From positions 1 to 26,439 of the IMG/VR virus record IMGVR_UViG_3300042547_000229: a stretch of 26,439 bases of DNA, one strand, 5' to 3'. The notes under the pieces were generated by a model. That model searched no databases, was not told the origin of the DNA, and saw only the letters and a program-made list of their open reading frames with translations. The DNA is from a virus. Made by a program: the position numbers and the translations under genes. This document shows, one piece after another, positions 1,747 through 17,358 of the stretch (position 1 is its first letter; each line of letters starts with the position of its first letter).

Positions 1747-1755
1747 TTTAAGTGG
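1747..1755 (-). promoter_or_regulatory. Leader element CCACTTAAA upstream of the gene starting at 1743
   Basis: On the minus strand CCACTTAAA lies 3 bases upstream of the ATG. There is no promoter here, so this copy is internal to a transcript. Confidence 0.5.
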
Positions 1756-1765
1756 TTTTGGTTTT

Positions 1766-1909
1766 TCAATTTTTAGGTAGATTACGCTTAACATTTTTGC
1801 GTCTTTTCACCTCATCTAAAAAGACTTTTGCGTAGGCTTTCAATTCGTCCGTGGATAGCATCATCAATTCGTCCTCAATAAATTCCGGGAGGGTAACTTG
1901 GTTTTTCAT
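1766..1909 (-). CDS. Small hypothetical protein (47 aa)
   Basis: The frame runs from the ATG at 1909 to the TGA at 1766 and encodes 47 residues: an acidic first half (EFIEDELMMLSTDE) and a basic C-terminus (KRRKNVKRNLPKN). The pattern suggests one or two helices. A leader element lies 15 bases upstream of the start, as for other genes of this strand, and the gene fills the gap between its neighbours with short spacers, which is why it is called real despite its size. No family is recognised. The basic tail could bind nucleic acid, but that is only a guess from composition. Confidence 0.55.
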   Translation of the reverse strand: MKNQVTLPEFIEDELMMLSTDELKAYAKVFLDEVKRRKNVKRNLPKN

Positions 1910-1924
1910 CGGGTTCGGGTTAAA

Positions 1925-1935
1925 GGGTTAAGTGG
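1925..1935 (-). promoter_or_regulatory. Leader element CCACTTAACCC upstream of the gene starting at 1909
   Basis: Perfect copy of the most common form of the element, 15 bases upstream of the ATG, between two genes of one unit. Confidence 0.55.
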
Positions 1936-1936
1936 A

Positions 1937-2155
1937 TTAAGCGTGGGCGATTACTTTGTGGGACAATACCTCAAAAGAAAAGCATTCCATAAGGTCATAG
2001 TACTCATCTACAACCTCCGGGATTTCGGACAATTTTTCGCAACAAGTGTGGAACTCAATAACATTAGTCGCAGTAAGAAATCCGGAATGGTTCCGGGTAA
2101 ATTCAAAAAGACCGGGGGCAGTGCGGAGGCTAATTTCAAGGGAGATAGAGTACAT
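1937..2155 (-). CDS. Hypothetical protein, first gene of its unit
   Basis: 72 residues with the start at 2155. Upstream in-frame ATGs exist but lie at or before the promoter -7 box at 2188-2195, so they would not be in the mRNA. The protein is acidic in its second half and has paired cysteines (TCCEK), with no recognised motif. It is the first gene after a clear Bacteroidota-type promoter and is followed by two more small unknown proteins and then the endolysin. Confidence 0.6.
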   Translation of the reverse strand: MYSISLEISLRTAPGLFEFTRNHSGFLTATNVIEFHTCCEKLSEIPEVVDEYYDLMECFSFEVLSHKVIAHA

Positions 2156-2163
2156 AACGTGGT

Positions 2164-2174
2164 GGTTTAGTGTG
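2164..2174 (-). promoter_or_regulatory. Variant leader element CACACTAAACC
   Basis: Degenerate copy of the leader element, 8 bases upstream of the ATG at 2155 and downstream of the promoter at 2188-2218. Confidence 0.35.
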
Positions 2175-2187
2175 TCTTTCAATACCA

Positions 2188-2218
2188 TAAAGATACCACG
2201 CAATTCGGAATATCCAAA
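2188..2218 (-). promoter_or_regulatory. Bacteroidota-type promoter P1 (leftward)
   Basis: Minus strand reads TTTG, 19 bases, TATCTTTA, close to the Bacteroidota consensus TTTG-N19/20-TAnnTTTG. The flanks GTTTGGATA and TTTATGGTATTG are shared with three other promoters in the window. It drives the genes from 2155 down to 527. Confidence 0.8.
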
Positions 2219-2500: not shown

Positions 2501-2766
2501 ATTGTATAGATTATTGGGTAAAGCGATGCGGAAAAAAATCCGGATAGGACGGAGCAAACAATTGAAAACGTGGCCTCATAAATTGGGTAGAAAAGGAAAA
2601 ACGTGGAGACCCAACCAAAGTGAAATGCGATACAAGTTTCGCAATTAAATGGCTTAAATTTCAATTTGTAATACCATCCCGGCATAATCCGGAACTCCAT
2701 AATGCCCAACGATATTCCGGCACTAAAAAATGAAATCATCAAAATTGTCAAGGCGGTGTCTAACAT
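2479..2766 (-). CDS. Small membrane protein, holin candidate
   Basis: 95 residues with hydrophobic stretches at about 4-23, 48-65 and 68-88, so two or three membrane segments. A CETC motif lies between the first and second. Small size and several membrane segments in a unit that also carries a spanin-like gene make it a holin candidate, and this phage needs one because its amidase lacks a signal peptide. Holins have little sequence conservation, and other small phage membrane proteins look alike. The start at 2766 overlaps the sigma-like gene by 44 bases, and the end overlaps the next gene by 22. Confidence 0.6.
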   Translation of the reverse strand: MLDTALTILMISFFSAGISLGIMEFRIMPGWYYKLKFKPFNCETCIAFHFGWVSTFFLFYPIYEATFSIVCSVLSGFFSASLYPIIYTIWHTKKH

Positions 2767-3292
2767 TTGTTTTCAATTTGGCTTTCAGTTTGTCTATGGT
2801 GTCAACTATTGTTCGGTAAGGTATCCCGGTTTTTCTGCTCAAATCCATTTTTGACTTTGCACGGAGGAAGGCTTCAAATAGCAAACGCTTGGTGGGAAAC
2901 TTGGTTTTGTCCCAAGTTTGCATTTCCTCAAATGCGAACCTTAAAGCGACCTCAATTTGCTCCGGGGTAATTTCGGTGGACTCCGACATTCCCGGCTCAT
3001 ATACGACCCGGAACTCCAACGAGTCAACGTTCAAATCGCAAACGAAATGCCGGTACTTTTTTGCGAAGGGTGAGTCATTAGAGCGGTAGAGGTTTATCAT
3101 TGTCCGGACAACGTAAAAAGTCAAAAGACCCTCCCGGTGCAACTCTTCAATTTTGCCCTCCGGTTTTTGTAACAAAACCAAAATAACCTCTTGCCCCAAA
3201 TCCTCTGCATCCCGTGAGGAAGCAATTTGTCGGGCAATACGTGGAATTGTCCCGTCAAGTACAAGAGCCGCAATTATTGATTTTGAGTTCAT
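2723..3292 (-). CDS. Sigma-70-family (ECF-like) sigma factor homologue
   Basis: 189 residues from the ATG at 3292. Residues 28-72 (RDAEDLGQEVILVLLQ, then LLTFYVVRTMINLYRS) match the shape of sigma region 2: an acidic AEDL.QEV helix and a second helix that contacts core polymerase and the -10 element. Residues 137-175 (LLFEAFL, then MDLSRKTGIPYRTIVDTIDKLK) form a helix-turn-helix like region 4. Such a factor would direct host RNA polymerase to phage promoters. The start overlaps the preceding gene by 38 bases; a longer frame from 3424 would be almost wholly inside that gene and is not preferred. It could also act as an anti-host or adaptor protein with a sigma-like fold. Confidence 0.72.
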   Translation of the reverse strand: MNSKSIIAALVLDGTIPRIARQIASSRDAEDLGQEVILVLLQKPEGKIEELHREGLLTFYVVRTMINLYRSNDSPFAKKYRHFVCDLNVDSLEFRVVYEPGMSESTEITPEQIEVALRFAFEEMQTWDKTKFPTKRLLFEAFLRAKSKMDLSRKTGIPYRTIVDTIDKLKAKLKTNVRHRLDNFDDFIF

Positions 3293-3647
3293 TTCTTCCA
3301 AAAGACATTCCGGGAAAAACCCAAGGGGATATTCGGGAGCCGGCAAATACCGGGGTCGGTTTTTGCATAAACTCAAACAATTTTTTGTAATTCTTTTCTT
3401 GTGGCCTCCCGTACGCTTCGTCAATCAAATCGCAAGAGTGCATAACTGACGTGTGGTGGCGGTTTGTGAATTGACCAATTTTCTGAAAGGACATTCCGGC
3501 CTTGTGCCTCAAAAGGTATTGTAGGCACTGCCTCGCAAGTGCGATATTAAAGGTTTTCAAATTCCCCATAATGTCGGCCTCCGATACCGGGTACCAACGC
3601 AAAGTCAAAACAAGGCACTCGGAGGGGGTCATAGTTGAGGCAAACAT
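3255..3647 (-). CDS. DnaA domain IV-like DNA-binding protein
   Basis: 130 residues. Residues 36-77 (ALARQCLQYLLRHKAGMSF, then KIGQFTNRHHTSVMHSCD) match the DnaA C-terminal DNA-binding domain, including the RHHTSV stretch that corresponds to the DHTTV signature contacting the DnaA box. No AAA+ ATPase domain is present, so it is not an initiator by itself. It may bind DnaA-box-like sites in the phage or host. The ATG at 3647 overlaps the stop of the spanin-like gene in a TAATG arrangement, which decides the start over an upstream TTG. Its 3-prime end overlaps the sigma-like gene by 38 bases. Confidence 0.75.
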   Translation of the reverse strand: MFASTMTPSECLVLTLRWYPVSEADIMGNLKTFNIALARQCLQYLLRHKAGMSFQKIGQFTNRHHTSVMHSCDLIDEAYGRPQEKNYKKLFEFMQKPTPVFAGSRISPWVFPGMSFGRNELKINNCGSCT

Positions 3648-4069
3648 TAGGAGTGTATTAACCAATAAAAAAACCTACCAATTACTACAAGGGCAACAAG
3701 AAAAAAGGCAACAATCAAAATCACTTTTTGATAGTTGTTTTTCTTTGTGGTTTTTTGCACCTCTTTTGAGGACGTATAGGTGGAGTCTTTGGTGGACTCA
3801 ACGGAGTCGGTAAGCACAACGGCCCGTACCTCGTTTGAGTCAACCGATATTCTCACTCTTGACCTCCCGGCCTTAATCATCAATTTGCCTCCGGGTACTT
3901 TCGGAAGGGCAACGTAGGTGCTTGAAGGCAAAGCAACGTACCGCTCCCGAACCGAAATCAAAGAGTCAGTTTTGACCGACTCAGTTGCCTTTTTGGAGCA
4001 ACCGGGGGTAAGGGTGGTCAATAGGACAACCAACCCCATTTTTAACCATAATGTAGCCATACCCTTCAT
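3647..4069 (-). CDS. Probable unimolecular spanin (lipoprotein with C-terminal membrane segment)
   Basis: 140 residues. The N-terminus is a lipoprotein signal: charged start, hydrophobic stretch at 11-20 and a lipobox-like LTPGC with Cys24 as the lipid-bearing residue. The C-terminus has one strong membrane segment at about 116-137. A lipid anchor at one end and an inner-membrane helix at the other, joined by a periplasmic linker, is the layout of u-spanins such as T1 gp11, which fuse inner and outer membranes in the last step of lysis. No family motif confirms it. The gene starts 89 bases inside the preceding gene, with a leader element 6 bases upstream of the ATG at 4069; another ATG at 4060 is possible. 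Confidence 0.62.
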   Translation of the reverse strand: MKGMATLWLKMGLVVLLTTLTPGCSKKATESVKTDSLISVRERYVALPSSTYVALPKVPGGKLMIKAGRSRVRISVDSNEVRAVVLTDSVESTKDSTYTSSKEVQKTTKKNNYQKVILIVAFFLVALVVIGRFFYWLIHS

Positions 4070-4220
4070 TTAATTGGGTTAAGTGTTTCTTGTGCAAAAC
4101 TCGCAAATAATGCTCATAATCAATAGCAAGTGGCCGGATTATTTCAGCGTGGGTCGGGAGCGTGGCCGACTCTAATTCAACTTGAACGTGAGTCCTCCAT
4201 TTCAAAAAGTCAACTTTCAT
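3981..4220 (-). CDS. Hypothetical protein
   Basis: 79 residues, rich in His, Leu and Tyr in the middle (HYLRVLHKKHLTQLNEGYG). No family is recognised. The start overlaps the stop of the preceding gene in an ATGA arrangement, and a variant of the leader element lies 5 bases upstream. The 3-prime end overlaps the spanin-like gene by 89 bases, the longest same-strand overlap seen in this region. The C-terminal part is therefore constrained by two frames. Confidence 0.55.
   Translation of the reverse strand: MKVDFLKWRTHVQVELESATLPTHAEIIRPLAIDYEHYLRVLHKKHLTQLNEGYGYIMVKNGVGCPIDHPYPRLLQKGN
4076..4085 (-). promoter_or_regulatory. Leader element CACTTAACCC upstream of the spanin-like gene
   Basis: Lies 6 bases upstream of the ATG at 4069 and inside the coding sequence of the gene at 3981-4220, so it is kept despite a coding constraint. 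Confidence 0.55.
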
Positions 4221-4573
4221 TCTTCGGGGTTTAAGAGGTGGAACAAAGAGTTGCTATCCGCATTGTTTATTTCCGGTTTCCGGTTTGCTACGTAGTCAAA
4301 AAGAACGGCCTCTGAAACCCTTCTGAAATCAACTTTTCGTAGAAAGTTCTCAATGGCTATTGAGAACGGGTGGGCCCTTGGTCTGCTCTCGTAATCATAA
4401 TTACGCAACAATAGGCTCATTATCCGGATTTGGATATTGACCAACGTGGTCTCTTTTTGAGTATTAACAAATTCACCAACGGGTGGAAACACGTCTTTTT
4501 GGTGGGCAACACAAATCCAATAATAGATTAAGTGCGTGTCTGCGGTCATCATTGCTTTATGAGGGTTTTCCAT
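4217..4573 (-). CDS. Hypothetical protein
   Basis: 118 residues. The N-terminal part has helical character with Tyr, Trp and Cys (THLIYYWICVAHQKD); the middle has a basic and hydrophobic helix (NIQIRIMSLLLRNYDYE). No recognised motif. The start at 4573 has a leader element 7 bases upstream and overlaps the preceding gene by 17 bases. The stop overlaps the next start by 4 bases. It sits among small unknown genes between the promoter at 5209 and the lysis and regulatory genes. Confidence 0.6.
   Translation of the reverse strand: MENPHKAMMTADTHLIYYWICVAHQKDVFPPVGEFVNTQKETTLVNIQIRIMSLLLRNYDYESRPRAHPFSIAIENFLRKVDFRRVSEAVLFDYVANRKPEINNADSNSLFHLLNPEE
4226..4241 (-). promoter_or_regulatory. Variant leader element upstream of the gene starting at 4220
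   Basis: Minus strand CCACCTCTTAAACCCC, a form of the element with extra bases between CCAC and CTTAAACCCC, 5 bases upstream of the ATG and inside the end of the preceding gene. Confidence 0.4.
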
Positions 4574-4799
4574 TTTGTGCGGGGTTTAAGTGGTTTTGAA
4601 AATCGTTCCATATTTTTGTCTCCAATTCGTCTCTATCTTTTGAACTCATAATTGACGGGTAGGGGTCTCCTTTTTCAATTTTAGTCATCCAAACCGAGTA
4701 ATAGCGGTCATACCACAATTCGGCCCGGTAGTTTACATTAGGGAACTCAACGCTTTGTGGTTTGTCCTTTCGGCCTTTCCAATTAAATCTATTTGCCAT
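4557..4799 (-). CDS. Hypothetical protein
   Basis: 80 residues from the ATG at 4799; an ATG at 4850 would overlap the preceding gene and is less likely. Rich in aromatic residues (YRAELWYDRYYSVWMTKI) followed by a charged helix (SSKDRDELETKIWNDFQNHL). This suggests a small strand-plus-helix fold. No family is recognised. It follows the first gene of the P2 unit with a spacer of 19 bases. Confidence 0.55.
   Translation of the reverse strand: MANRFNWKGRKDKPQSVEFPNVNYRAELWYDRYYSVWMTKIEKGDPYPSIMSSKDRDELETKIWNDFQNHLNPAQNGKPS
4581..4593 (-). promoter_or_regulatory. Leader element CCACTTAAACCCC upstream of the gene starting at 4573
   Basis: Lies 7 bases upstream of the ATG and inside the 3-prime end of the preceding gene; no promoter is present here. 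Confidence 0.55.
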
Positions 4800-4818: not shown

Positions 4819-5172
4819 TTAAAGTACGGCCTTTTTGACCAAGTTTTCAACTATCTCAATATTCTCCCGGAGGTAGGCATCAATAGAGGAATTAACGTGG
4901 AGGTCAAATTTGTCCCGTTCCCAAATAACGGAAACAATCTCAACGTAGTCATCCCCTTTATCGCAGTCAATTACGTCTCCGATTTCATAGTCGCCAATTC
5001 CATCATTTCCAATAACGTACTTAACATCGGCATAGAGTAAGGAGTCCCGTTTTTGCTTTACAAAAAAGGTGTCGTATTGTTCCTCCGTCCATCCGGAGAA
5101 CTCCGCTACCTCTACCATTATATTCAAGGTAGCCGAAAGGGACAAAACATTTGTGGGGGTAAGTGTAGCCAT
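4819..5172 (-). CDS. Hypothetical acidic protein, first gene of the P2 unit
   Basis: 117 residues, strongly acidic (GIGDYEIGDVIDCDKGDDYVEI in the middle), with the look of a small beta-rich protein followed by a C-terminal helix (SIDAYLRENIEIVENLVKK). Small acidic proteins made first from a strong early promoter are often host-takeover or anti-defence factors, sometimes DNA mimics. That is a hint from position and charge only. The ATG at 5172 lies downstream of the promoter at 5209-5240 with a leader element between. Confidence 0.62.
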   Translation of the reverse strand: MATLTPTNVLSLSATLNIMVEVAEFSGWTEEQYDTFFVKQKRDSLLYADVKYVIGNDGIGDYEIGDVIDCDKGDDYVEIVSVIWERDKFDLHVNSSIDAYLRENIEIVENLVKKAVL

Positions 5173-5182: not shown

Positions 5183-5193
5183 GGTTTAAGTGG
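5183..5193 (-). promoter_or_regulatory. Leader element CCACTTAAACC upstream of the gene starting at 5172
   Basis: Lies 10 bases upstream of the ATG, between promoter P2 and the start codon. Confidence 0.55.
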
Positions 5194-5208: not shown

Positions 5209-5240
5209 TAAAGATACGATAACAATACTTTGTATCCAAA
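5209..5240 (-). promoter_or_regulatory. Bacteroidota-type promoter P2 (leftward)
   Basis: Minus strand reads TTTG, 20 bases, TATCTTTA, followed by the shared TGGTATTG. Drives the genes from 5172 down to 2246, which include the spanin-like, DnaA-like and sigma-like genes. Confidence 0.8.
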
Positions 5241-5650: not shown

Positions 5651-7021
5651 CTATTTATCACCATACCAATTAGCCGGAGGAGTTCTCCGGAATTTAACGT
5701 CATCCCTCATTTCGTCCCACGTGGAGACCCGTGTATGCTTCAAGTCAATACGGGACAAAATAGTACCAATGCCTCCGCTCCGGTGTTTACGTATAATGAC
5801 TTCAAGGTAGTGTTCATATTGCTCCTTTTCCGGCATATTCATATATTCTGCCGGGCGGTACACGAACATAATTTTGTCGGCATCGTATTCAAGTTGCCCG
5901 GACTCCCGGAGGTCGGCCATAATTGGTCGGTGGTCATTTCGGGAGTCAACTCCCCGGCTCAACGAGGATACCACGCATACCCAAATCTTCAATCGTTTCG
6001 CAAGATTTTTAAGGGCAATTGAGATAGCGGTTATTTGCTCGTACTTTGATTTAGTCCGGTCAGCAGAAAAGGGTCGTATCAGTTGCAAGTAGTCAATATA
6101 AATTCCGGCAATTTTGTGTTTCCGTATCAACCTCCGGGCCGTGGCCTCAATCGTAAGTAGGTCTGCGGACTCAATATCAAAAATAAAGAGCGGAATGTCA
6201 CTCATAGCAAAGGACTCCGTGGCCCCGGATACTCGCTCAACTACGTGCCGGTCAACGTTTGACGGGTCATTAAGGAGTGAGCCATCAAAGTCGTAAAGGT
6301 TGGACAATACCCGTCCGCACAATTGCTCCTCCGACATTTCCAAAGAGACGAACGCAACCGGAGTCCCGGACGTGGCTTGATTAAGTGCAAGTTGTAGGGC
6401 CAAAGTGGTTTTTCCCATAGCCGGACGGCCACCAATAAGGATGAACTCAGTAGGCTTAAAGCCTCCGAGCATTTTGTCCAAGTGCCAAATCCCGGACTTA
6501 CTTACAACCGGAGGAGGTATCGTCCCGTTGTAGTAATCAACCAAACGTACCCGGTACGAATCAAGCAAAGACCCAATAGGTACGGCATCCTTTGCGGTGC
6601 CGTCATTTATTTTCTCAATCCGGTCAATAGCGTTTGAGACCGCAGTGTCAATTCCCATATTTTCGGACTCCGTAAGGAACAAGTCCCGGATAGCAATTTT
6701 TGCCCGTTCAATCCTCAAATCCTCCAACTCGGCAAGATATTCCCGGTAGCCTCCAACCGGGACGTAGGCCTCATCAAGGCATACCACGTAAACCATCGTT
6801 ATTGGGGTGTTGGGGTCAATCTTTAACGCATAGGAGTTTAAGGTTCGGAAGTTGACAACCGCTCCGTCCCGTGTCATATCCTTTATCAAGCTGAAACACG
6901 TTCGCTCAACTCCGGTGAAAACGTCCGGGTTTACCTCCTCAATAATTTGGGGAGTCCATCCGTAGCCGGAGACAAAAAGGGACAAAATGGCTTTTTCATA
7001 ATCTTTGTTAACGAGGTTCAT
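5651..7021 (-). CDS. dnaB: Replicative DNA helicase, DnaB family
   Basis: 456 residues, the usual DnaB size. An N-terminal helical domain (1-110) is followed by a linker and a RecA-like ATPase domain. Walker A is GRPAMGKT (198-205); FVSLEMS (224-230) is the DnaB-specific motif after it; Walker B is GIYIDYLQLI (306-315). VVSSLSRGVDSR (350-361) and DLRESGQLEYDAD (370-382) match the later helicase motifs, and RKHRSGG (411-417) carries the arginine finger region. It unwinds DNA at the phage replication fork as a hexameric ring. Its ATG overlaps the stop of the winged-helix gene in TAATG, so a loader or initiator and its helicase are translated together. No phage DNA polymerase or primase is seen in the window, so host enzymes may be used. 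Confidence 0.96.
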   Translation of the reverse strand: MNLVNKDYEKAILSLFVSGYGWTPQIIEEVNPDVFTGVERTCFSLIKDMTRDGAVVNFRTLNSYALKIDPNTPITMVYVVCLDEAYVPVGGYREYLAELEDLRIERAKIAIRDLFLTESENMGIDTAVSNAIDRIEKINDGTAKDAVPIGSLLDSYRVRLVDYYNGTIPPPVVSKSGIWHLDKMLGGFKPTEFILIGGRPAMGKTTLALQLALNQATSGTPVAFVSLEMSEEQLCGRVLSNLYDFDGSLLNDPSNVDRHVVERVSGATESFAMSDIPLFIFDIESADLLTIEATARRLIRKHKIAGIYIDYLQLIRPFSADRTKSKYEQITAISIALKNLAKRLKIWVCVVSSLSRGVDSRNDHRPIMADLRESGQLEYDADKIMFVYRPAEYMNMPEKEQYEHYLEVIIRKHRSGGIGTILSRIDLKHTRVSTWDEMRDDVKFRRTPPANWYGDK

Positions 7022-7028
7022 TAAGTGG
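7021..7028 (-). promoter_or_regulatory. Leader element CCACTTAA directly at the helicase start
   Basis: The element abuts and shares bases with the ATG at 7021 (CCACTTAATG) and also contains the stop of the preceding gene. Confidence 0.4.
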
Positions 7029-7488: not shown

Positions 7489-7941
7489 TTACAAAATAGA
7501 GGATGATTCCCGGTATGAATAATAGGAATTTTCAGTTAAAATAATATGGTCAAGGAGTTGAATATCAAGCAGTTTACACGCTTCATTTATCCTCCGGGTA
7601 ATGTCATCGTCAGCCGTGGACGGCTTCAAATTACCGGAGGGGTGGTTGTGGCAAAGAATGATACCGGAGGCCAAAGACTCCACCGCATATTTCATAACGA
7701 TTTTGGGGTCAACAACTGTCCCGGCAACTCCACCTTGGCTAATCTTCGCATACCCTATTGGCCGGTTCATTTTAGACAATAGAACGATAAACATAGACTC
7801 ATAAAGAGTGAGGTCATCGTGGAAAAAGTTACGGCAAAACTTAACGGAGTCATCCGCACTCCGTACTTGTTCGGCCTCAAGTTTCGGCATAGACTTGTCA
7901 ACCGCAAGTTTATAGGCCGGGACGTTTTTAACGTGGCTCAT
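7489..7941 (-). CDS. radC: RadC-family JAB/MPN protein
   Basis: 150 residues, one MPN domain without the N-terminal helix-hairpin-helix of long RadC proteins. The JAMM metal site is complete: Glu49, His98 and His100 (CHNHPSG), Ser108 and Asp111. RadC-like proteins are common in phages and mobile elements, and their biochemical role is still not settled; a DNA repair function has been doubted. The ATG at 7941 overlaps the preceding stop in ATGA and is preceded by AAGGAGG on the minus strand, the only obvious Shine-Dalgarno-like sequence noticed, which decides the start over a longer frame from 7977. Confidence 0.9.
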   Translation of the reverse strand: MSHVKNVPAYKLAVDKSMPKLEAEQVRSADDSVKFCRNFFHDDLTLYESMFIVLLSKMNRPIGYAKISQGGVAGTVVDPKIVMKYAVESLASGIILCHNHPSGNLKPSTADDDITRRINEACKLLDIQLLDHIILTENSYYSYRESSSIL

Positions 7942-8126
7942 TTTTTGTTCCTCCTTCTGTTTAGTTCCATTCCGCAATAGGCGATTTCGTCAAGGTAGTA
8001 CCCGGCATTCGGACTATCGGGCAAAGCGGCAAGGGCCTCTTGGCAGTCTTTAATTACAAACCGGAGGGAGGCCTCATCCATTTTCCGGACTTTCTTTTGG
8101 TACTCGGTGTGGTTCATCGTTTTCAT
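7938..8126 (-). CDS. Small hypothetical protein, first gene of the replication unit
   Basis: 62 residues from the ATG at 8126 (8117 is also possible). Helical, with a basic C-terminus (GMELNRRRNKK). Longer in-frame starts lie at or upstream of promoter P3 and would not be transcribed. It is followed by radC with an ATGA overlap. No family is recognised. Confidence 0.6.
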   Translation of the reverse strand: MKTMNHTEYQKKVRKMDEASLRFVIKDCQEALAALPDSPNAGYYLDEIAYCGMELNRRRNKK

Positions 8127-8134: not shown

Positions 8135-8145
8135 GGGTTAAGTGG
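8135..8145 (-). promoter_or_regulatory. Leader element CCACTTAACCC upstream of the gene starting at 8126
   Basis: Perfect copy, 8 bases upstream of the ATG and downstream of promoter P3. Confidence 0.6.
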
Positions 8146-8155: not shown

Positions 8156-8186
8156 TAAAGATACGGAACATTTTTGAATATCCAAA
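8156..8186 (-). promoter_or_regulatory. Bacteroidota-type promoter P3 (leftward)
   Basis: Minus strand reads TTTG, 19 bases, TATCTTTA, with the shared GTTTGGATATTC and TATGGTGTTGAA flanks. Drives radC, the winged-helix gene, dnaB and the GNAT-like gene. Confidence 0.8.
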
Positions 8187-8253: not shown

Positions 8254-8598
8254 TTAGAACGGCATATCATCGTGGCCCTCGGCCGGGGAGCCAAAGTTGT
8301 CTTTTTGTCCTCCGAACAACGGAGGCTTTTGGGCCGGGCGGTTTTGCGTTCCGGTGTAGGGTTGGCCGATTGGGTGGGCAGTATAGACCGGAGCAGAGGT
8401 GTCTCCTTTTTCTACCCAAGGGGATATTTTGCCGGAGTACATAATACCACGGGCCGTTTGCTTTTCCCATACGGCAAGGTTCATTTTCGTCCCGTCCGGC
8501 AATATGCAATAGCCGTTAAAGTTCGGGGACTTGTCGGAGGTTCGGTTTGTTTCAAAGAGGGAAACGTCTCCGGGTTTCGGTACATAAGGGGTGTTCAT
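8254..8598 (-). CDS. Single-stranded DNA-binding-like protein
   Basis: 114 residues. The C-terminus ends in HDDMPF, very like the acidic SSB tail (DDDIPF) that recruits partner proteins. It is preceded by a Gly/Pro/Gln-rich flexible linker (80-108). The short N-terminal domain has strands (GYCILPDGTKMNLAVWEK, YSGKISPWVEKG) compatible with an OB-like fold, but smaller than standard SSB. It is last in a unit with the ERF annealing protein, the usual company of a phage SSB. Other DNA-binding folds with an SSB-type tip remain possible. Confidence 0.7.
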   Translation of the reverse strand: MNTPYVPKPGDVSLFETNRTSDKSPNFNGYCILPDGTKMNLAVWEKQTARGIMYSGKISPWVEKGDTSAPVYTAHPIGQPYTGTQNRPAQKPPLFGGQKDNFGSPAEGHDDMPF

Positions 8599-8609
8599 TT
8601 TTTTTGGGA

Positions 8610-9068
8610 TTAAAGGGTTACTGCGATTGAAGATTTAGTTGCTTTGGCCGGGGGGCAATCTATTACCTCCCCGGTACTTGGACAAAGGATGAAGGCTTTT
8701 CCCTCGTTTTTGAAGGCTGACCTCAAAAGGTCTTTACGTGCTTTCACTTGGGCCTCCAACTCCGCAAGGATGGTGTCGTGCGAAAAGTCCGGGGTTAATG
8801 TTCCCTCCCGGTTTTGGATTTTGCATCCAAAAAGTTCCACGTTTTTGCCCCCGTTCTCATAACGGGATAGTTCATCTTGGGTAGCCGACTCAATGGCCTC
8901 AATAATATCGGCCATCGTTTTGGCTATCATTTTGGCCTTTACGTAAGTGGGGAGTGCTTTTGCATCCCCGGATAGTACCTCATCCACAACTCGCAACTTA
9001 AAGTCGTGCAATTTTTCTTTAACCTCCTCTCCCGGAAGGGGGCCAAAAAAGTAAACGGCACTAAACAT
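8610..9068 (-). CDS. Hypothetical protein of the recombination module
   Basis: 152 residues: a mainly helical N-terminal half (EEVKEKLHDFKLRVVDEVL, YVKAKMIAKTMADIIEAIE), then KNVELFGCKIQNREG and a Cys-containing end (FILCPSTGEVIDCPP). No family is recognised. The position between an ERF recombinase (8-base overlap) and an SSB-like gene suggests an accessory role in recombination, but it could also be a structural or regulatory protein. Confidence 0.65.
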   Translation of the reverse strand: MFSAVYFFGPLPGEEVKEKLHDFKLRVVDEVLSGDAKALPTYVKAKMIAKTMADIIEAIESATQDELSRYENGGKNVELFGCKIQNREGTLTPDFSHDTILAELEAQVKARKDLLRSAFKNEGKAFILCPSTGEVIDCPPAKATKSSIAVTL

Positions 9069-9678
9069 TTTTAGCGTTGTTTATACGCTCCCGGAGGAAC
9101 TTGACCCCGTTTTGAACCTTCTCAACACTCCACATTTGGTTTAGTGCATACTTGGTTTTTTCATCGTCCGACAACGTGGACAATAAATTCGTGTACTCCG
9201 AACGTAGTTGGTTTAACGTGTTCATTTCAGCCAACGATTTTTTACGGGCCTCCTCTGCACCGGGCCGGTCAGTCATAACGGGCAAATTGGCCGATTTAGA
9301 TACCGGGGTGCGATTACAACCGGAGGCGGCATTTGCGTCATCGTCCTCGGCTTGGAGGGCCAATAGGCTTTGCAACGTGTACCTCCGCAAGTAGGTTATT
9401 TCCGACCCAAGTTTTTGCGGGTCTCCGGAGGTGGTCAAACGTGCAACCGACTCAATAGAGCCTCCGGTCTCAACGTCAATAATAGAGGTTGTAACGGAGT
9501 CCGTGGTTACGGGTTGAACTACGAGGAGGCCGTGTTTTTGGAGTACGGGCTCAACGTGTTCAAGGAGTGAGTTGATGTCAAAGTACCTACTTTTGAAATA
9601 GGGGTTGACGGAATCCTTGGGTATTTTCCCCAAGTCGGCCTTTACTTTGAAGACCTTTTCTCGCAATTCTTTATTCAT
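9061..9678 (-). CDS. erf: ERF-family single-strand annealing protein
   Basis: 205 residues. The ERF core is plain: NPYFKSRYFDINSLLEHVEPVLQKHGL (25-51) and GSEITYLRRYTLQSLLAL followed by acidic QAEDDDANAASG (near 91-119). ERF proteins anneal complementary single strands in phage recombination. The C-terminal 80 residues are helical and charged and vary in this family. It is first in a three-gene unit with an SSB-like protein at the end. No exonuclease lies in the same unit; the PD-(D/E)XK proteins at the left end could serve. Start at the ATG at 9678, after a leader element. Confidence 0.93.
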   Translation of the reverse strand: MNKELREKVFKVKADLGKIPKDSVNPYFKSRYFDINSLLEHVEPVLQKHGLLVVQPVTTDSVTTSIIDVETGGSIESVARLTTSGDPQKLGSEITYLRRYTLQSLLALQAEDDDANAASGCNRTPVSKSANLPVMTDRPGAEEARKKSLAEMNTLNQLRSEYTNLLSTLSDDEKTKYALNQMWSVEKVQNGVKFLRERINNAKNV

Positions 9679-9686: not shown

Positions 9687-9696
9687 GGGTTAAGTG
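9687..9696 (-). promoter_or_regulatory. Leader element CACTTAACCC upstream of erf
   Basis: Lies 8 bases upstream of the ATG at 9678, between the probable -7 box and the gene. Confidence 0.55.
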
Positions 9697-9701
9697 AGCC
9701 G

Positions 9702-9732
9702 TAAAGGTACAAAAGAGGGTTGAATAAAAAAA
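9702..9732 (-). promoter_or_regulatory. Probable leftward promoter for the erf unit
   Basis: Minus strand -7 box TACCTTTA (9702-9709), the same variant as in the promoter at 17376. The -33 region is only T-rich (TTTT) rather than TTTG, and the GTTTGGATA flank is absent, so it is likely weaker or needs a partner protein. Confidence 0.5.
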
Positions 9733-10063: not shown

Positions 10064-10659
10064 AGAATGCCCGGTACTACCGGGGAATTGTTTATGAGTT
10101 CAATTTGCCTACCGGGTGGACTTGCCCGTTCGCAAAAGAGTGCTTGGTTAAAGTGAACCGGGACAACGGAAAGTTCTCAAAACACATTGGGGAATACTAT
10201 TGCTATGCCTCAAAGCCGGAGCGATTTCCGGCCGTGCGAGACCATCGTTGGAAGAACTTTGAACACGTCTCAAAGGGCAACCCTATCGTTATTCCCCCGA
10301 AGGCAAAAGCAATTCGGATACACGCATCCGGGGACTTTTTTAATCAAGCCTACTTTGACCATTGGTTGGAACTTGCCCGGACAAACCCCGGTGTGGAGTT
10401 TTGGGCCTACACAAAGTCCCTCCCGTATTGGATTAACCGATTGGACTCAATACCGGGGAACTTGATTTTGACCGCAAGTTATGGCGGTAAGCACGACCAC
10501 TTGATTGAGCATTATGGGTTAAAGAACGTGGTTGTGTACCAAGACCTCAAAGACGTTCCGAAACACCGACCCGTTGACACCAACGATGATTACGCACGAA
10601 TGACGTGTGTGAACTTTGCTTTATTGGACAACTCAAAAACCCCTAAAAAACCAAAATGA
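10051..10659 (+). CDS. GP88-like phage protein with conserved cysteines
   Basis: 202 residues. The segment AIRIHASGDFFNQAYFDHWLELA (88-110) followed by FWAYTKSLPYW is the hallmark of the phage family known as gene product 88, whose function is unknown. Four cysteines (Cys25 and Cys31 in TCPFAKEC, Cys51 in YYCYAS and Cys186 in MTCVNF) could hold a metal or an iron-sulfur cluster. The CP..A..C...CYA pattern recalls radical-SAM-like phage proteins, but no classic CxxxCxxC is present, so this is only a suggestion. It overlaps the neighbours on both sides by 13 and 4 bases, so it belongs to the operon of modification-type enzymes that follows. Confidence 0.72.
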   Translation: MSFVKNARYYRGIVYEFNLPTGWTCPFAKECLVKVNRDNGKFSKHIGEYYCYASKPERFPAVRDHRWKNFEHVSKGNPIVIPPKAKAIRIHASGDFFNQAYFDHWLELARTNPGVEFWAYTKSLPYWINRLDSIPGNLILTASYGGKHDHLIEHYGLKNVVVYQDLKDVPKHRPVDTNDDYARMTCVNFALLDNSKTPKKPK

Positions 10660-11183
10660 CCCGAAACACCGCAACGATGATTGAGTTGAAAAAACTCAAA
10701 CCAAACCCCAATAATCCTCGGACTATCCGGGACGAAAAATTCAAAAAGTTGGTCAAATCATTGACCCATTTCCCGGAAATGCTTATGGCCCGGCCGATAG
10801 TCGTGAACTCCGAAATGGTAATCATCGGAGGCAATATGCGGTACAAAGCGGCAATAGAGGCCAAACTTGGCTCCGTCCCGGTGTTTATTGCGGATTGGGA
10901 CGAGCAAGCACAAAAGGAGTTTACCATTAAAGACAACTCATCGGCCGGGGAGTGGGATTGGGAGGCTTTGGCGAACGAGTTTGAAAGCGAGGACTTGAAG
11001 GAGTGGGGAGTCCTCCCGGACTTTGCCTACAACCCGGAGACGAATCCCCAAACACAAATGAGGGACGTAACGGACGATGACGTTGACATACGGCAAAAAC
11101 AAATTGACGATGGGTTAAGTTCGGAGAACACCTATCAAGTTGTCCTATGCCCTAATTGCTCCCACGAATTCAAAATTGCGTAA
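10656..11183 (+). CDS. ParB/sulfiredoxin-fold protein with a C-terminal CxxC
   Basis: 175 residues. The N-terminal domain starts with LKPNPNNPRTIRDEKFKKLVKSL and has the GGNMRYKAA box (58-66), the phosphate- and nucleotide-binding motif of ParB-like domains. In phages this domain often stands before a DNA methylase or an enzyme of unknown role. Here it is followed by an acidic linker and a terminal LCPNCSHEF, half of a zinc ribbon. It is not a partition ParB: the HTH and dimer domains are absent. The start overlaps the preceding stop in ATGA, and the stop overlaps the next start in TAATG. Confidence 0.82.
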   Translation: MTRNTATMIELKKLKPNPNNPRTIRDEKFKKLVKSLTHFPEMLMARPIVVNSEMVIIGGNMRYKAAIEAKLGSVPVFIADWDEQAQKEFTIKDNSSAGEWDWEALANEFESEDLKEWGVLPDFAYNPETNPQTQMRDVTDDDVDIRQKQIDDGLSSENTYQVVLCPNCSHEFKIA

Positions 11184-12028: not shown

Positions 12029-12602
12029 GGGCCGGGAGTTTTGTGTCAATCAACTCCGGGTTCAAATCCCCGACCTCATCGTAAACCTTGATGACTTTAC
12101 GGATACCGGGATTTTTAAGTCAACGGCATATTTCAACTACCTCCGGAGTTTTGAACTTGCCGGGCATTCCGAAGCGATTTTTATGGATGACGACATACGA
12201 TTGTGCGACTCCTTTATTGAAAAGGCCAAAGGTGAGATAGCCAAAGACCCCGGAGCAATTATCACATTTTTCTCAATGAAAAAGGCCGACTTGGAAAAGG
12301 GTACAAGGTTGATGCCTCCAAACACGTTTATCGGTATGTGTTGTTTCTACCTTCCTCCCGGTTATGCAAAACAATTGTCAAAATACGGGAAGAATTGGTA
12401 CCACAACTATGCAAACGATATAAAGGCCGGGTGGATTCAACTCCACAAATTTTGCCCTATTGAGATAATGATGCAAGATTGGATGAAATCAAAAAGAATG
12501 TCCTACAAAATTGTGGTTCCAAACTTGGTGCAACACTTGGGCATTAAGTCGGCCATTAACCCAAAAAGAAACCCCGGAAGGTACTCCCCGACCTACATTT
12601 GA
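12003..12602 (+). CDS. Glycosyltransferase-like protein (GT-A fold, DxD motif)
   Basis: 199 residues. FMDDDIRLCDSFIEKA (60-75) has the DxD signature that binds a nucleotide-sugar through a metal, on a strand after a helix as in GT-A enzymes. Later features are CCFYLPPGYAKQL and IMMQDWMKSKRMSYKIVVPNLVQHLGIKS, where DW followed by a VPNLVQH region resembles acceptor-side segments of sugar transferases. Phage enzymes of this type decorate DNA bases, virions or host surface. The gene overlaps the methyltransferase by 26 bases, in the same cassette as the PAPS-reductase-like protein. Confidence 0.68.
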   Translation: MKKIVTTCKGREFCVNQLRVQIPDLIVNLDDFTDTGIFKSTAYFNYLRSFELAGHSEAIFMDDDIRLCDSFIEKAKGEIAKDPGAIITFFSMKKADLEKGTRLMPPNTFIGMCCFYLPPGYAKQLSKYGKNWYHNYANDIKAGWIQLHKFCPIEIMMQDWMKSKRMSYKIVVPNLVQHLGIKSAINPKRNPGRYSPTYI

Positions 12603-12606
12603 GCCG

Positions 12607-13809
12607 ATGAGGATTTGTTTAGACAAAAACGTACTTGAAGCCGGGAGGGAGCGGATAGCGTTCCTATTTGAGGAGTTTGCAAACCCGGTTGTCGCATTCT
12701 CCGGTGGTAAGGACTCTACCATCGTCCTCAATTTATGTCTTGACGAGGCCCGGAAACGGGGGAGAAAGTTGCCCGTTTTGTTTATTGACCAAGAGGCCGA
12801 ATGGACTGCTACCATTGAATACGTGGAGTGGGTTATGAGTCTTGATGACGTTATTCCATATTGGCTACAAATCCCGTTCGTGATGACGAACAATGCCTCC
12901 TCCGAGGATTATTGGCAAAAGGTGTGGGATGACGAGCATCCGGGAAAGTGGTTAAGGCCCAAGTCCCCGTTGGCCATCCATAGCAATAAGTACAACGGGT
13001 CAAGGTTCTACGAGTTGTTTGATAAGTTCATCCTCCAAGAGTATCCGGGGGAGTCGGCTTGTTTGATTGCGGGACTCCGGGCCGAGGAAAGTCCCGGCCG
13101 GAACCTTGCGGTAACGGAGGGCGAAACCTACAAATGGATTACTTGGGGCCGGGTCGTATCTGCGGAGCAAGGCAAGTATGCCTTTTACCCAATTTACGAT
13201 TGGACGTACAAAGACGTGTGGAAAGCCATCCACCAACACGGGTGGGAGTATTGCCGGCTTTACGATGAGTTCTACCGAAGGGGAGTGAAGACCCCACAAA
13301 TGCGGATTTCAAACCTCCACCACGAAACGAGTTTGGTTCAATTGACGTGGGTGCAAGAGATTGACCCTCCGTTGTGGAACAAGTTGGCCGAAAGAATATC
13401 CGGGGCCAATACCTTAAAGCATTTGAGGTTTAAGTCAACCAAATGCCCGGAGACTTTGCCGTTTATGTTTGAGTCGTGGAGGGAATACGCTTTGCACCTT
13501 TTGGACAACTTGGTCTTTGACGAAAGGGTGGCCGGACGGATTAAGGCCGTAATGGAGGCGAAGATGAAGATTTACACAACGGAGCCAATAGCGACTGACT
13601 TTTACAAAGCGTGTATTGCCTCAATCCTTATTGGGGATGATGCCATAACCAAAATCCGGAACTTTTACCGGATGACCCCGGTGTGGGTTTACGAGGACAT
13701 AAAGGCCGGACGTAAGCACAAATGGAAAAAGGAAAACTTGAAATTCAGTAAGTACTTGACCAAAGAAATGATTGATGAACTTGTAAACTTTTTGAAGAAT
13801 GGACGATAA
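12607..13809 (+). CDS. ibrA-like: PAPS reductase-like protein, IbrA type
   Basis: 400 residues. SGGKDS (32-37) is the PP-loop of the PAPS reductase/ATP sulfurylase superfamily. VLFIDQEAEWTATIEYV follows as in the nucleotide-binding core. ACLIAGLRAEES matches the GLRxxES segment that recognises the adenylyl group. The C-terminal part (SLVQLTWVQEIDPPLWNKLAERISGANTL) looks like the DUF3440 region of IbrA, not the ECGIH Cys motif of true assimilatory reductases. The next gene is ParB-like, matching the IbrA-IbrB pair known from E. coli and from phages. The reaction is unknown. Start at the ATG at 12607, 4 bases after the preceding stop; an upstream frame from 12511 would overlap that gene. Confidence 0.85.
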   Translation: MRICLDKNVLEAGRERIAFLFEEFANPVVAFSGGKDSTIVLNLCLDEARKRGRKLPVLFIDQEAEWTATIEYVEWVMSLDDVIPYWLQIPFVMTNNASSEDYWQKVWDDEHPGKWLRPKSPLAIHSNKYNGSRFYELFDKFILQEYPGESACLIAGLRAEESPGRNLAVTEGETYKWITWGRVVSAEQGKYAFYPIYDWTYKDVWKAIHQHGWEYCRLYDEFYRRGVKTPQMRISNLHHETSLVQLTWVQEIDPPLWNKLAERISGANTLKHLRFKSTKCPETLPFMFESWREYALHLLDNLVFDERVAGRIKAVMEAKMKIYTTEPIATDFYKACIASILIGDDAITKIRNFYRMTPVWVYEDIKAGRKHKWKKENLKFSKYLTKEMIDELVNFLKNGR

Positions 13810-14455
13810 ATTGAAGGAGGGACTGCTTGAAGGGTTGAACCGGGCCGAGGACAAAGTTGGGTACGTGGAGGAGGTACGGGCCTTTTTGTCTCAAATCTCC
13901 CCAATCAACCAACCGATTGACCACGTGCGTTGGGTTCCGGTGGAGGAGGTGGAGCCAAATGACTACAACCCGAACTCCGTGGCTAAAATTGAAATGGGCC
14001 TTTTGTACCGGTCAATCTTGAAGGACGGATACACTCAACCCATCGTAACGATACGAGACCCGGAAACGGGCAAGTATGTCATCGTTGACGGGTTCCACCG
14101 ATACTTTACGTGCAAAACCAACCAAGATATTCGGGAGCGGAACCTTGGCCGGGTGCCAATAGTCGTAATCAAAAAGAGCATTAACGAGCGAATGTCTGCG
14201 ACCATCCGGCACAACCGGGCGAGGGGTAGCCACTCAATCCAAGGAATGTCCAATATGGTATTCAAAATGCTTGATAACGGGTGGAGCGATGCCGAAATTT
14301 GCAACGAACTTGGAATGGAAGTGGATGAACTTTTGAGGCTCAAACACGTAACGGGGTTCTCAAAGTTGTTCCAAAACCAAGAGTACAAATTAGCGTGGGA
14401 GACCCGGAAACAAATGAAGGCCCGGAAAGAGTGGGAGGACAAAAACAAGGAATAA
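13799..14455 (+). CDS. ibrB-like: ParB-like domain protein, IbrB type
   Basis: 218 residues. The domain starts at VRWVPVEEVEPNDYNPNSVAKIEMGLLYRSI (about 43-73), a ParB N-terminal signature, with IVDGFHRYFTC as the GxxR-like box and MSATIRHNRARGSHSIQGMSNMV after it. A helical region with DNGWSDAEICNELGMEVDELLRLKHVTG then gives a helix-turn-helix. This arrangement, next to and overlapping (11 bases) an IbrA-like gene, is that of IbrB. IbrA and IbrB were first seen as regulators of eib genes in E. coli, but their biochemistry is unknown. It is the second ParB-fold protein in this cassette. Confidence 0.85.
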   Translation: MDDKLKEGLLEGLNRAEDKVGYVEEVRAFLSQISPINQPIDHVRWVPVEEVEPNDYNPNSVAKIEMGLLYRSILKDGYTQPIVTIRDPETGKYVIVDGFHRYFTCKTNQDIRERNLGRVPIVVIKKSINERMSATIRHNRARGSHSIQGMSNMVFKMLDNGWSDAEICNELGMEVDELLRLKHVTGFSKLFQNQEYKLAWETRKQMKARKEWEDKNKE

Positions 14456-14876: not shown

Positions 14877-16038
14877 GAAGACAACGGCCCAAGCCAAAAT
14901 TGCGAAACTGCGAAAACGGGTACGGGTAGTCCAAGGGGGAACTTCTGCATCCAAGACGTACTCCATACTGCCCCATTTGATAAACTATGCCATAACCCAC
15001 TCCGACAAAGAAATAAGCGTGGTTGCCGAAACTTATCCACACTTGCGGAGGGGAGCGTTGAAAGATTTCATATCAATAATGAAGATGACCGGGAATTGGT
15101 GTGATGACTATTGGAATGCCGGGTTGAGCAAATACACGTTCTCCTCCGGGTCTTACATTGAGTTTTTCAGCGTTGAGCAAGAGCAAAAGGTGCGTGGAGC
15201 GAGGAGGGATGTCCTATTTGGGAACGAGTGCAATGCGTTCAAGTGGGAAACGTACCACCAAATGGCCATCCGAACGAGGGAGTTCATCTATCTTGACTAC
15301 AACCCCTCCATTGAGTTTTGGGCCCATACGGAGGTCATTCCCGACCCGGATACCGACTTTGTGGTTTTGACGTATAAGGACAACGAGGCTTTGGATGAGA
15401 GCATCGTGAAGGAAATTGAGAAGGCAAGGGAGAAGGCCGAAACGTCAAAGTATTGGGCCAATTGGTGGAGGGTATTTGGCCTTGGTTTGCCCGGAGTCCT
15501 CCAAAACTCCGTCTTTGACAACTACGAGTTGATAGACCATATTGACAAATCAAAGGCCAAATTCGTAGCGTTGGGATTGGATTGGGGTTTCAGTATAGAC
15601 CCGACCGCATTGATTGCCGTGTACCGAAGGGGCGATGAAATCTACTTGGAGCAACTGATATACGAGAAGGGGTTGACAAATCAAGATTTGGCCGAGCGGA
15701 TGAGGTCTATGGGATTGAGCCGGGAGTGGGAGATAATTGCCGACTCCTCCGAGCCAAAATCTATTGAGGAGGTATTCCGGATGGGGTTCAACGTAAAGGG
15801 GGTGGGGAAAAAGGCCACGGCCCTATCAATTGACATATTGAGGCGGTACAAAATCTTCATAACCAAGGATTCAGTTGACTTTATCCGGGAGTTCCGCAAT
15901 TATGTTTACGTCTCCGACAAAAATGGGTCAAATACCGGAGTCCCCGTGGATAAGGACAACCACTGCGTTGACGCATTGAGGTATGTGGCCTTGGAAAAAT
16001 TGAGCGTAAACAACTCCGGGGAGTATTTCTTTTTTTAA
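14863..16038 (+). CDS. terL: Terminase large subunit
   Basis: 391 residues. ATPase: Walker A GGTSASKT (25-32) and Walker B VLFGNECN with the catalytic Glu. RNase H-like nuclease: LGLDWGFSIDPTALI, IADSSEP and NHCVDALRY supply the three acidic positions. It powers DNA translocation into the prohead and cuts the concatemer. The length is slightly short of the usual 420-500 residues but all motifs are present. The ATG at 14863 overlaps terS by 14 bases. Sequence alone does not tell whether packaging is headful or site-specific. Confidence 0.96.
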   Translation: MREFKKTTAQAKIAKLRKRVRVVQGGTSASKTYSILPHLINYAITHSDKEISVVAETYPHLRRGALKDFISIMKMTGNWCDDYWNAGLSKYTFSSGSYIEFFSVEQEQKVRGARRDVLFGNECNAFKWETYHQMAIRTREFIYLDYNPSIEFWAHTEVIPDPDTDFVVLTYKDNEALDESIVKEIEKAREKAETSKYWANWWRVFGLGLPGVLQNSVFDNYELIDHIDKSKAKFVALGLDWGFSIDPTALIAVYRRGDEIYLEQLIYEKGLTNQDLAERMRSMGLSREWEIIADSSEPKSIEEVFRMGFNVKGVGKKATALSIDILRRYKIFITKDSVDFIREFRNYVYVSDKNGSNTGVPVDKDNHCVDALRYVALEKLSVNNSGEYFFF

Positions 16039-16047
16039 CCAACCGAT

Positions 16048-16632
16048 ATGAAAAAGGTCAAAAATCTATCAATCCGGGAATACATTGATGCGTTAGGCAT
16101 TGAGAAGAACCGGACTCTATCAAATGCCGAGAAGAAGGTCAAATTGCTACGCATACTTGCTCCGGGGTCAAGTCCGGAGGCGTTAGGCCTCACAACCTTG
16201 AATCAACTCTACGAAAAGATTGAGGCCCAATTTACGGAGTTGAAGAATGCGAAACCCGTGTACTATATCCGCATTGGGGCCGTGTGGTACCAAGTTGACG
16301 TGTTCTACCGGGAGTTGTCGGCCGGGCAATACATTGACCTTATGGCCGTGAACTCAAAGGACGACTCCGAACTTGCGGACAACCTTGACCGGATAATGGC
16401 CATATTGTGCAGACGATGCCGGTTCTTATGGTTTTTCCCGGAGCGATACAACACAAAGACCTTTGACGAAAGACGGGCCTTAATGTTGACCCGGTGCAAA
16501 ATCGGGGAGGTTATGGGGGTGGTCAATTTTTTTTTGCAGAGTTGGACCGAGTTGTCCTATCATATAGCAACTTTTTTGGCCGAGGAACGGATAGAGACAA
16601 TGAAGAAGGAGTTGGAGCGGATGGTCAAGTAG
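16048..16632 (+). CDS. Tail assembly chaperone-like protein (zero-frame product)
   Basis: 194 residues, mainly helical. The middle (KPVYYIRIGAVWYQVDVFYRELSAGQYIDL) and LMLTRCKIGEVMGVVNFFLQSW fit proteins found upstream of tail genes in Bacteroidota siphoviruses. A nine-T run (16527-16535) near the 3-prime part gives a slip site for -1 frameshifting into a second open frame that overlaps this gene by about 100 bases, the arrangement of lambda gpG/gpGT. Such proteins coat the tape measure during tail assembly and are absent from the virion. The start is the ATG at 16048, 9 bases after terL. Confidence 0.68.
   Translation: MKKVKNLSIREYIDALGIEKNRTLSNAEKKVKLLRILAPGSSPEALGLTTLNQLYEKIEAQFTELKNAKPVYYIRIGAVWYQVDVFYRELSAGQYIDLMAVNSKDDSELADNLDRIMAILCRRCRFLWFFPERYNTKTFDERRALMLTRCKIGEVMGVVNFFLQSWTELSYHIATFLAEERIETMKKELERMVK
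16527..16535 (+). other. Slippery nine-T run, likely -1 frameshift site
   Basis: AAT TTT TTT TTG in the zero frame. A -1 slip of the ribosome continues as TTT GCA GAG TTG. Both tRNAs can re-pair on T-only codons. No clear pseudoknot was found downstream by eye. Confidence 0.6.
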
Positions 16633-16874
16633 AGGAGATTTCCGAGGCCGAGGCCAACGGGGAGGTTGAGGTTAAAGACCGGGAGGATTACTTGTCTCAT
16701 TGGGGGTGGCTAATGACGGCATACCGGATAGCCGGGGATGACTTTACCAAAATGGAGCAAGTGTTCTCAATGACGGCTATTGAGTTTTTGAACTATTGCT
16801 CAATGCGTAAGGATATCCAAAACCAAACGATGGCCGATTTGAAACGAAAAAGCCGGGGGATACCCGGCCTTTAA
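16533..16874 (+). CDS. -1 frameshift extension of the tail assembly chaperone (gpT-like part)
   Basis: This frame has no ATG before LMTAYRIAGDD, so it is most simply read as an extension made by a -1 slip at 16527-16535, giving a fusion of about 275 residues. The extension has an acidic linker (EEISEAEANGEVEVKDRED) and then a compact helical domain (YLSHWGWLMTAYRIAGDDF, VFSMTAIEFLNYCSMRKD, NQTMADLKRKS), which is the part expected to bind the tail tube protein. The stop is at 16872-16874. A homopolymer length error in the assembly would give the same picture, and an unusual non-ATG start cannot be excluded. Confidence 0.6.
   Translation, partial: FAELDRVVLSYSNFFGRGTDRDNEEGVGADGQVEEISEAEANGEVEVKDREDYLSHWGWLMTAYRIAGDDFTKMEQVFSMTAIEFLNYCSMRKDIQNQTMADLKRKSRGIPGL
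16847..16868 (-). terminator. Rho-independent terminator for the embedded leftward gene
   Basis: Minus strand GCCGGG, TATCC, CCCGGC, then TTTTT (stem 16852-16857 with 16863-16868; T-tract 16851-16847). It lies within the last codons of the rightward frameshift extension. On the plus strand the same hairpin is followed only by CTTT, so it should act mainly leftward. Confidence 0.72.
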
Positions 16875-16884
16875 TGTTAGTCAA

Positions 16885-17331
16885 TTACCCGTTCGCTATT
16901 TCTCCAAGGTCTATGTGGTGGCCCTTCCCGTGGTAAACCGCAAAGCCGATAGGGGCAAACATTAAGTCAATAGGGGTCGTGGGCTTCAAGTTCAAGTACA
17001 ACATTAGCCTCCGGGCCGTCTCCAAAGTGAGTTCTGACTCATTAGTGTGGGCCATTAAGTCCTCCAATAAACTATCAATAGCCGAGGGGTACTTAACGTG
17101 TTCATCCAATAGAATTTCAATAAACCTAACGTGCAAACGAGCAAGAAGGCATCGCCTACTTACAAGGGGTGTTTTGCTTATTTCATTTAAGCGTTTCGCC
17201 ACATCCTTCGCCCGGTCGGTTACGGGCAGTGTGGCTTTGCCTCCAAGCAACTCTTTTACGTTAAGCATAGAGGACATAACGTGGTGGGACGTGCAAGGGA
17301 CAATCATTACGTGTGGGGCATTCTTACTCAT
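16885..17331 (-). CDS. Hypothetical protein, leftward gene inside the late operon
   Basis: 148 residues. The N-terminus has His and Met (APHVMIVPCTSHHVMSS); the middle is helical and basic (RAKDVAKRLNEI, LVSRRCLLARLHVRFIEILLDEH), followed by an acidic helix and a strand-rich C-terminus ending HGKGHHIDLGEIANG. No family is recognised. It is the only leftward gene among the virion genes and has its own early-type promoter, leader element and terminator, so it is a self-standing unit like a moron. It was probably kept because it acts early on the host or its defences, though this is inference from its promoter type. Confidence 0.75.
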   Translation of the reverse strand: MSKNAPHVMIVPCTSHHVMSSMLNVKELLGGKATLPVTDRAKDVAKRLNEISKTPLVSRRCLLARLHVRFIEILLDEHVKYPSAIDSLLEDLMAHTNESELTLETARRLMLYLNLKPTTPIDLMFAPIGFAVYHGKGHHIDLGEIANG

Positions 17332-17347
17332 CTTTTCGGGGTTTAGA

Positions 17348-17358
17348 GGGTTAAGTGG
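17348..17358 (-). promoter_or_regulatory. Leader element CCACTTAACCC upstream of the embedded gene
   Basis: Perfect copy, 16 bases upstream of the ATG at 17331, more than 7 kb from the other copies. Confidence 0.6.

Follow-up and report, generated by a model that had tools for sequence, protein, structure and literature searches.

A repeated word just upstream of leftward start codons in a probable Bacteroidota phage, read as a candidate translation-initiation signal

The 26,439 bases of IMG/VR record IMGVR_UViG_3300042547_000229, which are the entire virus record and are referred to here as the window, carry a repeated RNA word, CCACUUAA(A)CCC, directly 5' of the start codons of many leftward genes. 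Our analysis confirmed the element as a repeat with many copies, in one orientation and linked to leftward starts. On balance we read it as a translation-initiation signal in the messenger RNA (mRNA), this phage's stereotyped form of a start region that lacks a Shine-Dalgarno sequence; the function is one that we infer. A preliminary description of the window had already suggested a translation signal, and an mRNA-level signal is indeed the best reading given the sense orientation of the element, its link to starts and its independence of promoters.

The core common to the copies is CACTTAA, which occurs 12 times on the minus strand of the window and not at all on the plus strand. For the comparison with gene starts, 23 leftward and 12 rightward starts were curated by eye from the open reading frames (ORFs), so that single start choices may be off. 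CACTTAA was found within 30 nt upstream of 8 of the 23 leftward starts and of none of the 12 rightward ones (Fisher p 0.02), and 8 of its 12 copies lie in leftward upstream zones (binomial P ~7e-14, before correction for the choice of word). This is the search of both strands, with distances to starts, that the preliminary description had proposed as a check, and it bears the motif out. A motif obtained by expectation maximization (EM), CCACTTAACCC, scores at least 10 at 14 of the 23 leftward starts and at 0 of 11 rightward starts (p 0.0006), a comparison that is partly circular because the leftward set, together with contig L082 (described below), had served as its training data.

When all 7-mers were examined de novo, the top word was common to 8 of the 23 leftward starts, while the maximum was 6 in 2,000 sets of random windows and 7 in 2,000 Markov sets. 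Column-permuted upstream regions, taken from an automatic gene caller, reached the observed sharing in 0 of 200 cases. Real starts were sampled as a further control, 23 at a time, from five Bacteroidota genomes. In 1,000 draws from Niabella, which is of similar GC content, the maximum was 7, with a word made of A and T only. Genomes of similar GC never gave 8 shared 7-mers and two AT-rich genomes did so in 0.5% of draws; words with at least two G/C reached a maximum of 6 across 5,000 real-start draws.

All nine copies listed in the preliminary description are real, lie on the minus strand and contain the CACTTAA core. Its strict consensus, CCACTTAA(A)CCC, covers only part of them: it holds for the copies at 1925, 4581, 8135 and 17348 and not for the other five. 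The first base deviates at 4076 (ACAC..) and 9687 (TCAC..), the end deviates at 1745 (..AAACTT) and 5183 (..AAACCAC), and the copy at 7021 is truncated because its final A doubles as the first base of the ATG. The looser copies reported at 2164, 4226 and 8606 are real as well (ACACTAAACCA, CCTCTTAAACC and CCCTTTAATCC), and rightward starts have no copy, as had been stated, the nearest likeness being GACTTAACGA at 21846.

The copies, all on the minus strand, occur both with and without a promoter. Promoter-like sequences TTTGGATA...TATCTTTA, which resemble the Bacteroidetes -33/-7 consensus (PMC6847099), are found on the same strand at 2188-2218, 5209-5240 and 8156-8186 (the last matched in contig L081), and TTTGGATA...TACCTTTA is found at 17376-17407. 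They precede the looser copy ACACTAAACCA at 2163-2173, 5' of gene 1937-2155 (position weight matrix, PWM, score 12.4), and the copies in the leaders of genes 4819-5172 (CCACTTAAACC, 5183-5193), 7938-8126 (CCACTTAACCC, 8135-8145) and 16885-17331 (CCACTTAACCC, 17348-17358). These four and the first copy in L082 lie 10-17 bases after TTTGGATA...TAYCTTTA. The ERF gene (9061-9678) has a -7-like TACCTTTA at 9702-9709, and its copy, TCACTTAACCC at 9687-9697, follows 4 bases later, at or adjoining the predicted mRNA start. From these distances the promoter-linked copies and the ERF copy are placed in the predicted leader. The -7 elements of the phage read TAYCTTTA, as against TANNTTTG for the phylum.

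No promoter is evident for five other copies, all of which match well. Two of them are CCACTTAAACT at 1745-1755, 1 nt 5' of the ATG of gene 1417-1743, and CCACTTAACCC at 1925-1935, 5' of gene 1766-1909. The remaining three lie within the preceding gene: ACACTTAACCC at 4076-4086, within gene 3981-4220 and 5' of gene 3647-4069; the variant CCTCTTAAACC at 4228-4238, within gene 4217-4573 and 5' of gene 3981-4220; and CCACTTAAACC at 4583-4593, within gene 4557-4799 and 5' of gene 4217-4573. The truncated core at 7021-7027 overlaps the start codon of the gene for the DnaB-like helicase (5651-7021), and the loose copy CCCTTTAATCC at 8607-8617 (PWM score 7.3) is 5' of the SSB-like gene (8254-8598). 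The promoter survey and the internal copies agree with the earlier statement that the element occurs with and without a promoter, even inside upstream coding sequence. All start-linked copies are in the sense orientation, and since the promoterless internal copies still sit sense-oriented before starts, a role in the mRNA is favoured. Among leucine codons, TTA is more frequent within 32 nt 5' of a downstream start (5 of 18) than elsewhere (27 of 269; p 0.037), weak support, as two of those five lie outside the element. An antisense small RNA carrying the complement was rejected, since CACTTAA is missing from the plus strand of the window, and L081 and L082 do not have it in the corresponding orientation.

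The elements have a predicted unpaired probability of 0.75, compared with 0.48 for random minus-strand windows. The G content of positions -30 to -1 is 7.5% at element genes versus 17% and 20% at other starts, and the element consensus has no G and no Shine-Dalgarno core. The lack of a Shine-Dalgarno sequence noted earlier for this start-linked feature is true of most element starts. The RadC-like gene 7489-7941, unlike its neighbours, has a Shine-Dalgarno-like AAGGAGG upstream (7942-7960, minus strand); the same word is over-represented in pooled phage upstream regions (14 versus 1.1).

The host of the phage is very probably a Bacteroidota, because relatives of its terminase, 45-50% identical, occur in phages of Flavobacterium and in the genomes of Flavobacterium and Chitinophagales, and because its promoters are similar to the Bacteroidetes -33 TTTG / -7 type. 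What the preliminary description had missed is that the UUAA(A) core is phylum-wide, with its first A at -14/-13. In other Bacteroidota phage loci, for which gene calls were automatic, ACTTAA and CTTAA show a sharp peak 13-20 nt 5' of the ATG. Among the 1,425 phage gene starts left once similar proteins and upstream regions had been removed, -14/-13 is the commonest position for the first A of CTTAA; TTAAAA, TTAAAC and CTAAA share the peak zone and GTTAA has no peak. TTAAA peaks at -16 to -13 in three of five host genomes (Niabella, G316 and G308), and weakly or not at all in the other two (G344 and G193). Most good copies in the window have their first A at -15 to -10, and A has frequencies of 0.52, 0.70 and 0.52 at -13, -12 and -11 of leftward starts. 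The two copies with a more distant first A are each accompanied by a looser second copy with an A near -13: gene 1766-1909 (first A at -20) has CCCTTTAACCC at 1917-1927 (plus-strand match GGGTTAAAGGG; AA at -12/-11), and gene 16885-17331 (first A at -21) has CCTCTAAACCC at 17339-17349 (plus-strand match GGGTTTAGAGG; AAA at about -13 to -11). Accetto and Avgustin found A/T to be enriched at -12/-13 in Bacteroidetes and suggested binding by S1 (PMC3155529). In Flavobacterium johnsoniae, Baez et al. reported A at -14 to -11 with S1 nearby, and substitutions of A-12/A-13 were the most critical, cutting reporter expression (PMC6847099). Because its position matches both the CTTAA/TTAAA peak and the reported A-12/A-13, the best reading of the core is as the start-region signal of the phylum.

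In its exact form the word is private to the phage. The pattern CACTTAAMCCN{2,14}ATGAA has at most 3 matches per genome in 395 Bacteroidota genomes of ~1.4-7 Mb, and 3 copies in the 26-kb window. An origin of the element in the host was rejected: scans of the order and the phylum found no genome with heavy use, and the combination of promoter and element was absent from genome contigs. A loose scan for promoter plus element in viral sequences returned at least 118 stretches, and among the matches listed none had more than two start-linked copies; with a gene caller of the same type, the window has 7. Rfam held no match for the element. Contig L081 is 99.88% identical to the window across 10,758 bases, and L082 continues this genome, with an initial 1,681 bases that match the end of L081 at 98.5%. 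L082 contributes two more leftward copies, each directly 5' of an ATG, the second of which opens a frame of a mere 34 codons; a hairpin, GCCGGGCATTACCCCGGC, lies at 5220-5246 of L082, directly before a CACTTAACC copy and this ORF. Carriers among relatives are L081 (99.9% identical) and L082 (98.5%), and relatives at 48-65% ERF identity do not have the word. The preliminary description had named a lack of conservation in related phages as a refutation, and the exact word is indeed not conserved upstream of ERF orthologues (48-65% identical), which often share an A/T-rich core at a similar position and nothing more of the word. A query with the DnaB-like protein retrieved nothing beyond the phage itself.

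Other phage loci have start-associated words of their own: TTAACCAAA in L012, TTAACCTTTAAAACAA in L054 and AACTAAAAACAAAT in L026, with L008 and L027 behaving likewise. By automatic gene calls, TTAACC is upstream of starts in 8 of 19 cases in L012 (0.6 expected) and 7 of 20 in L054 (0.7 expected), and AACTAAAAA in 8 of 9 in L026. The pooled enrichment of TTAACC was rejected as a general signal, since L012 and L054 account for much of it. In L168, all four GCTATTTA copies are upstream of starts, and 5' of genes 9001 and 9530 an inverted repeat, GCTATTTAATAGC, stands directly before the ATGs.

In the mechanism that we propose, the UUAA(A) core would put adenines about 13 nt before the AUG, within a G-poor, unstructured leader. 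Bacteroidota ribosomes do without Shine-Dalgarno pairing, and this is their proposed site of contact with the mRNA, close to ribosomal protein S1. The phage would have fixed one C-flanked form (CCAC-UUAA(A)-CCC) of the phylum-wide start region for its leftward genes, which are probably early and replication genes. With a single fixed form at these genes, each start codon, including the internal ones of overlapping genes, would have its own docking site. The element may raise initiation, and S1 or the platform of the 30S subunit may be what reads it. Several observations weigh against such an initiation signal. Ordinary start regions of Bacteroidota are less stereotyped than this word, and host genomes make no heavy use of it, so that a general ribosome signal alone accounts neither for the flanks, CCAC and CCC, nor for the confinement to leftward genes. 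A good match is missing at nine of the 23 leftward starts. L081 and L082, the sole close relatives, have hardly diverged from the window, and conservation is poorly measurable from them.

These same features leave some room for a different reader. The element could be the binding site of a phage-encoded factor, one that binds RNA or modifies ribosomes and turns translation of all the leftward genes on or off together, in a role like that of T4 RegA. The word is stereotyped beyond both position-specific composition and real Bacteroidota starts, and it is private to the phage, restricted to one class of genes and variably spaced, as such a site might be. However, no RNA-binding family was found among the scanned genes, many of which are unassigned, and the core sits at the generic start-region peak, a position that a regulator site does not need. 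We retain this suggestion of the preliminary description as a candidate, and consider it rather unlikely. Slightly more doubtful still is the specific form in which a phage-encoded RNA-binding factor would read the private CACUUAA(A)CC and reprogram host ribosomes toward, or later away from, leftward messages.

The element could also act in DNA and serve a phage transcription factor, for example as an operator close to the promoter or as an initially transcribed region. In five or six cases a promoter-like -7 element precedes the copy by 4-17 bp, and the phage encodes sigma-like and DnaA-domain proteins. The internal copies, with no evident promoter, are nevertheless just 5' of AUGs and in the sense orientation only, and we regard a DNA site as improbable.

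Direct pairing of the element with the 16S ribosomal RNA (rRNA) loop near E. coli position 1085, which had been raised as a speculation, is very improbable. The 16S sequence proposed for it, GGGUUAAGUCCC, is present at the expected place in the 16S of Niabella, a host-type genome, and copies ending in AACCC form a 9-nt pairing there that is better than most shuffles (0-6%). Copies with AAACC, however, pair poorly at this site (0.28-0.81 versus shuffles), and in duplexes with the whole 16S both consensus forms do no better than shuffled elements (fractions 0.45 and 0.87); pairing with 16S h37 was rejected on these duplex energies. Moreover, hosts share the rRNA target yet make no heavy use of the word, and its spacing to the AUG is variable. 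Base composition alone, by which G-poor, C-rich leaders would yield the word by chance, is just as hard to credit: the leaders are G-poor and weak PWM matches (>=6) number 77 on the minus versus 23 on the plus strand, but the permuted upstream regions described above, with the same position-specific composition, never reach the observed sharing.

The leftward genes encode, besides the ERF-type annealing protein and the DnaB-like and SSB-like proteins, a RadC-like protein, a DnaD-like loader and an amidase; the terminase gene is among the rightward ones. Minus-strand gene 2723-3292 encodes a candidate phage sigma factor (weak matches to PHROG 1740, E 0.0034, and Pfam Sigma70_r2, E 0.063), and 3255-3632, also on the minus strand, a protein with the C-terminal helix-turn-helix domain of DnaA (Pfam E 5e-14), a putative stand-alone DnaA-box binder. 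On the plus strand, two proteins with ParB N-terminal domains (10656-11183 and 13799-14455) are encoded near a PAPS-reductase-like gene (12511-13809).

The element bears on how Bacteroidota ribosomes pick start codons without Shine-Dalgarno pairing, and natural test sequences are at hand in one short word that recurs at the presumed contact position whether or not a promoter is present. If a translational regulon exists, other Bacteroidota phages would be expected to carry words of their own, such as those of L012, L054 and L026.

Among known systems, the sites of T4 RegA do not share one conserved word. The likeness to RegA is that many early-gene start regions could fall under one factor, and the difference is that no comparable factor was identified in the scanned phage genes. 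With the Shine-Dalgarno-less start region of Bacteroidota (PMC3155529, PMC6847099) the element shares adenines near -13, low structure and, for the most part, the absence of a Shine-Dalgarno sequence; that region, however, is a genome-wide compositional preference, whereas here a stereotyped C-flanked word is found in one gene class. In arrangement, the closest precedent is the Start-Associated Sequences (SAS) of cluster K mycobacteriophages and cluster EF Microbacterium phages (PMC3203893, PMC7302621). SAS too are asymmetric short repeats, in ~10-19 copies of essentially single orientation, a few nt 5' of the starts of non-structural genes; some copies have promoter-like upstream sequence, they are near-absent from the host, and their function is unproven. 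The non-structural character is found here as well, with ERF, DnaB-like and SSB-like genes leftward and terminase rightward. SAS differ in that they contain a Shine-Dalgarno-like core, which is AGGAG in cluster K, and in that the SAS themselves are mostly 3-9 bp away from the start codon, whereas the element has no G, places UUAA ~13 nt from the start and belongs to a Bacteroidota phage, and the sequences are unrelated. We do not file the element as an SAS member, because the Shine-Dalgarno core is missing and because, for conservation across a cluster, L081 and L082 are the only close relatives that can be compared. The element also hints that start-associated words specific to single phages, as known in actinobacterial phages, have counterparts in those of Bacteroidota that lack a Shine-Dalgarno core.

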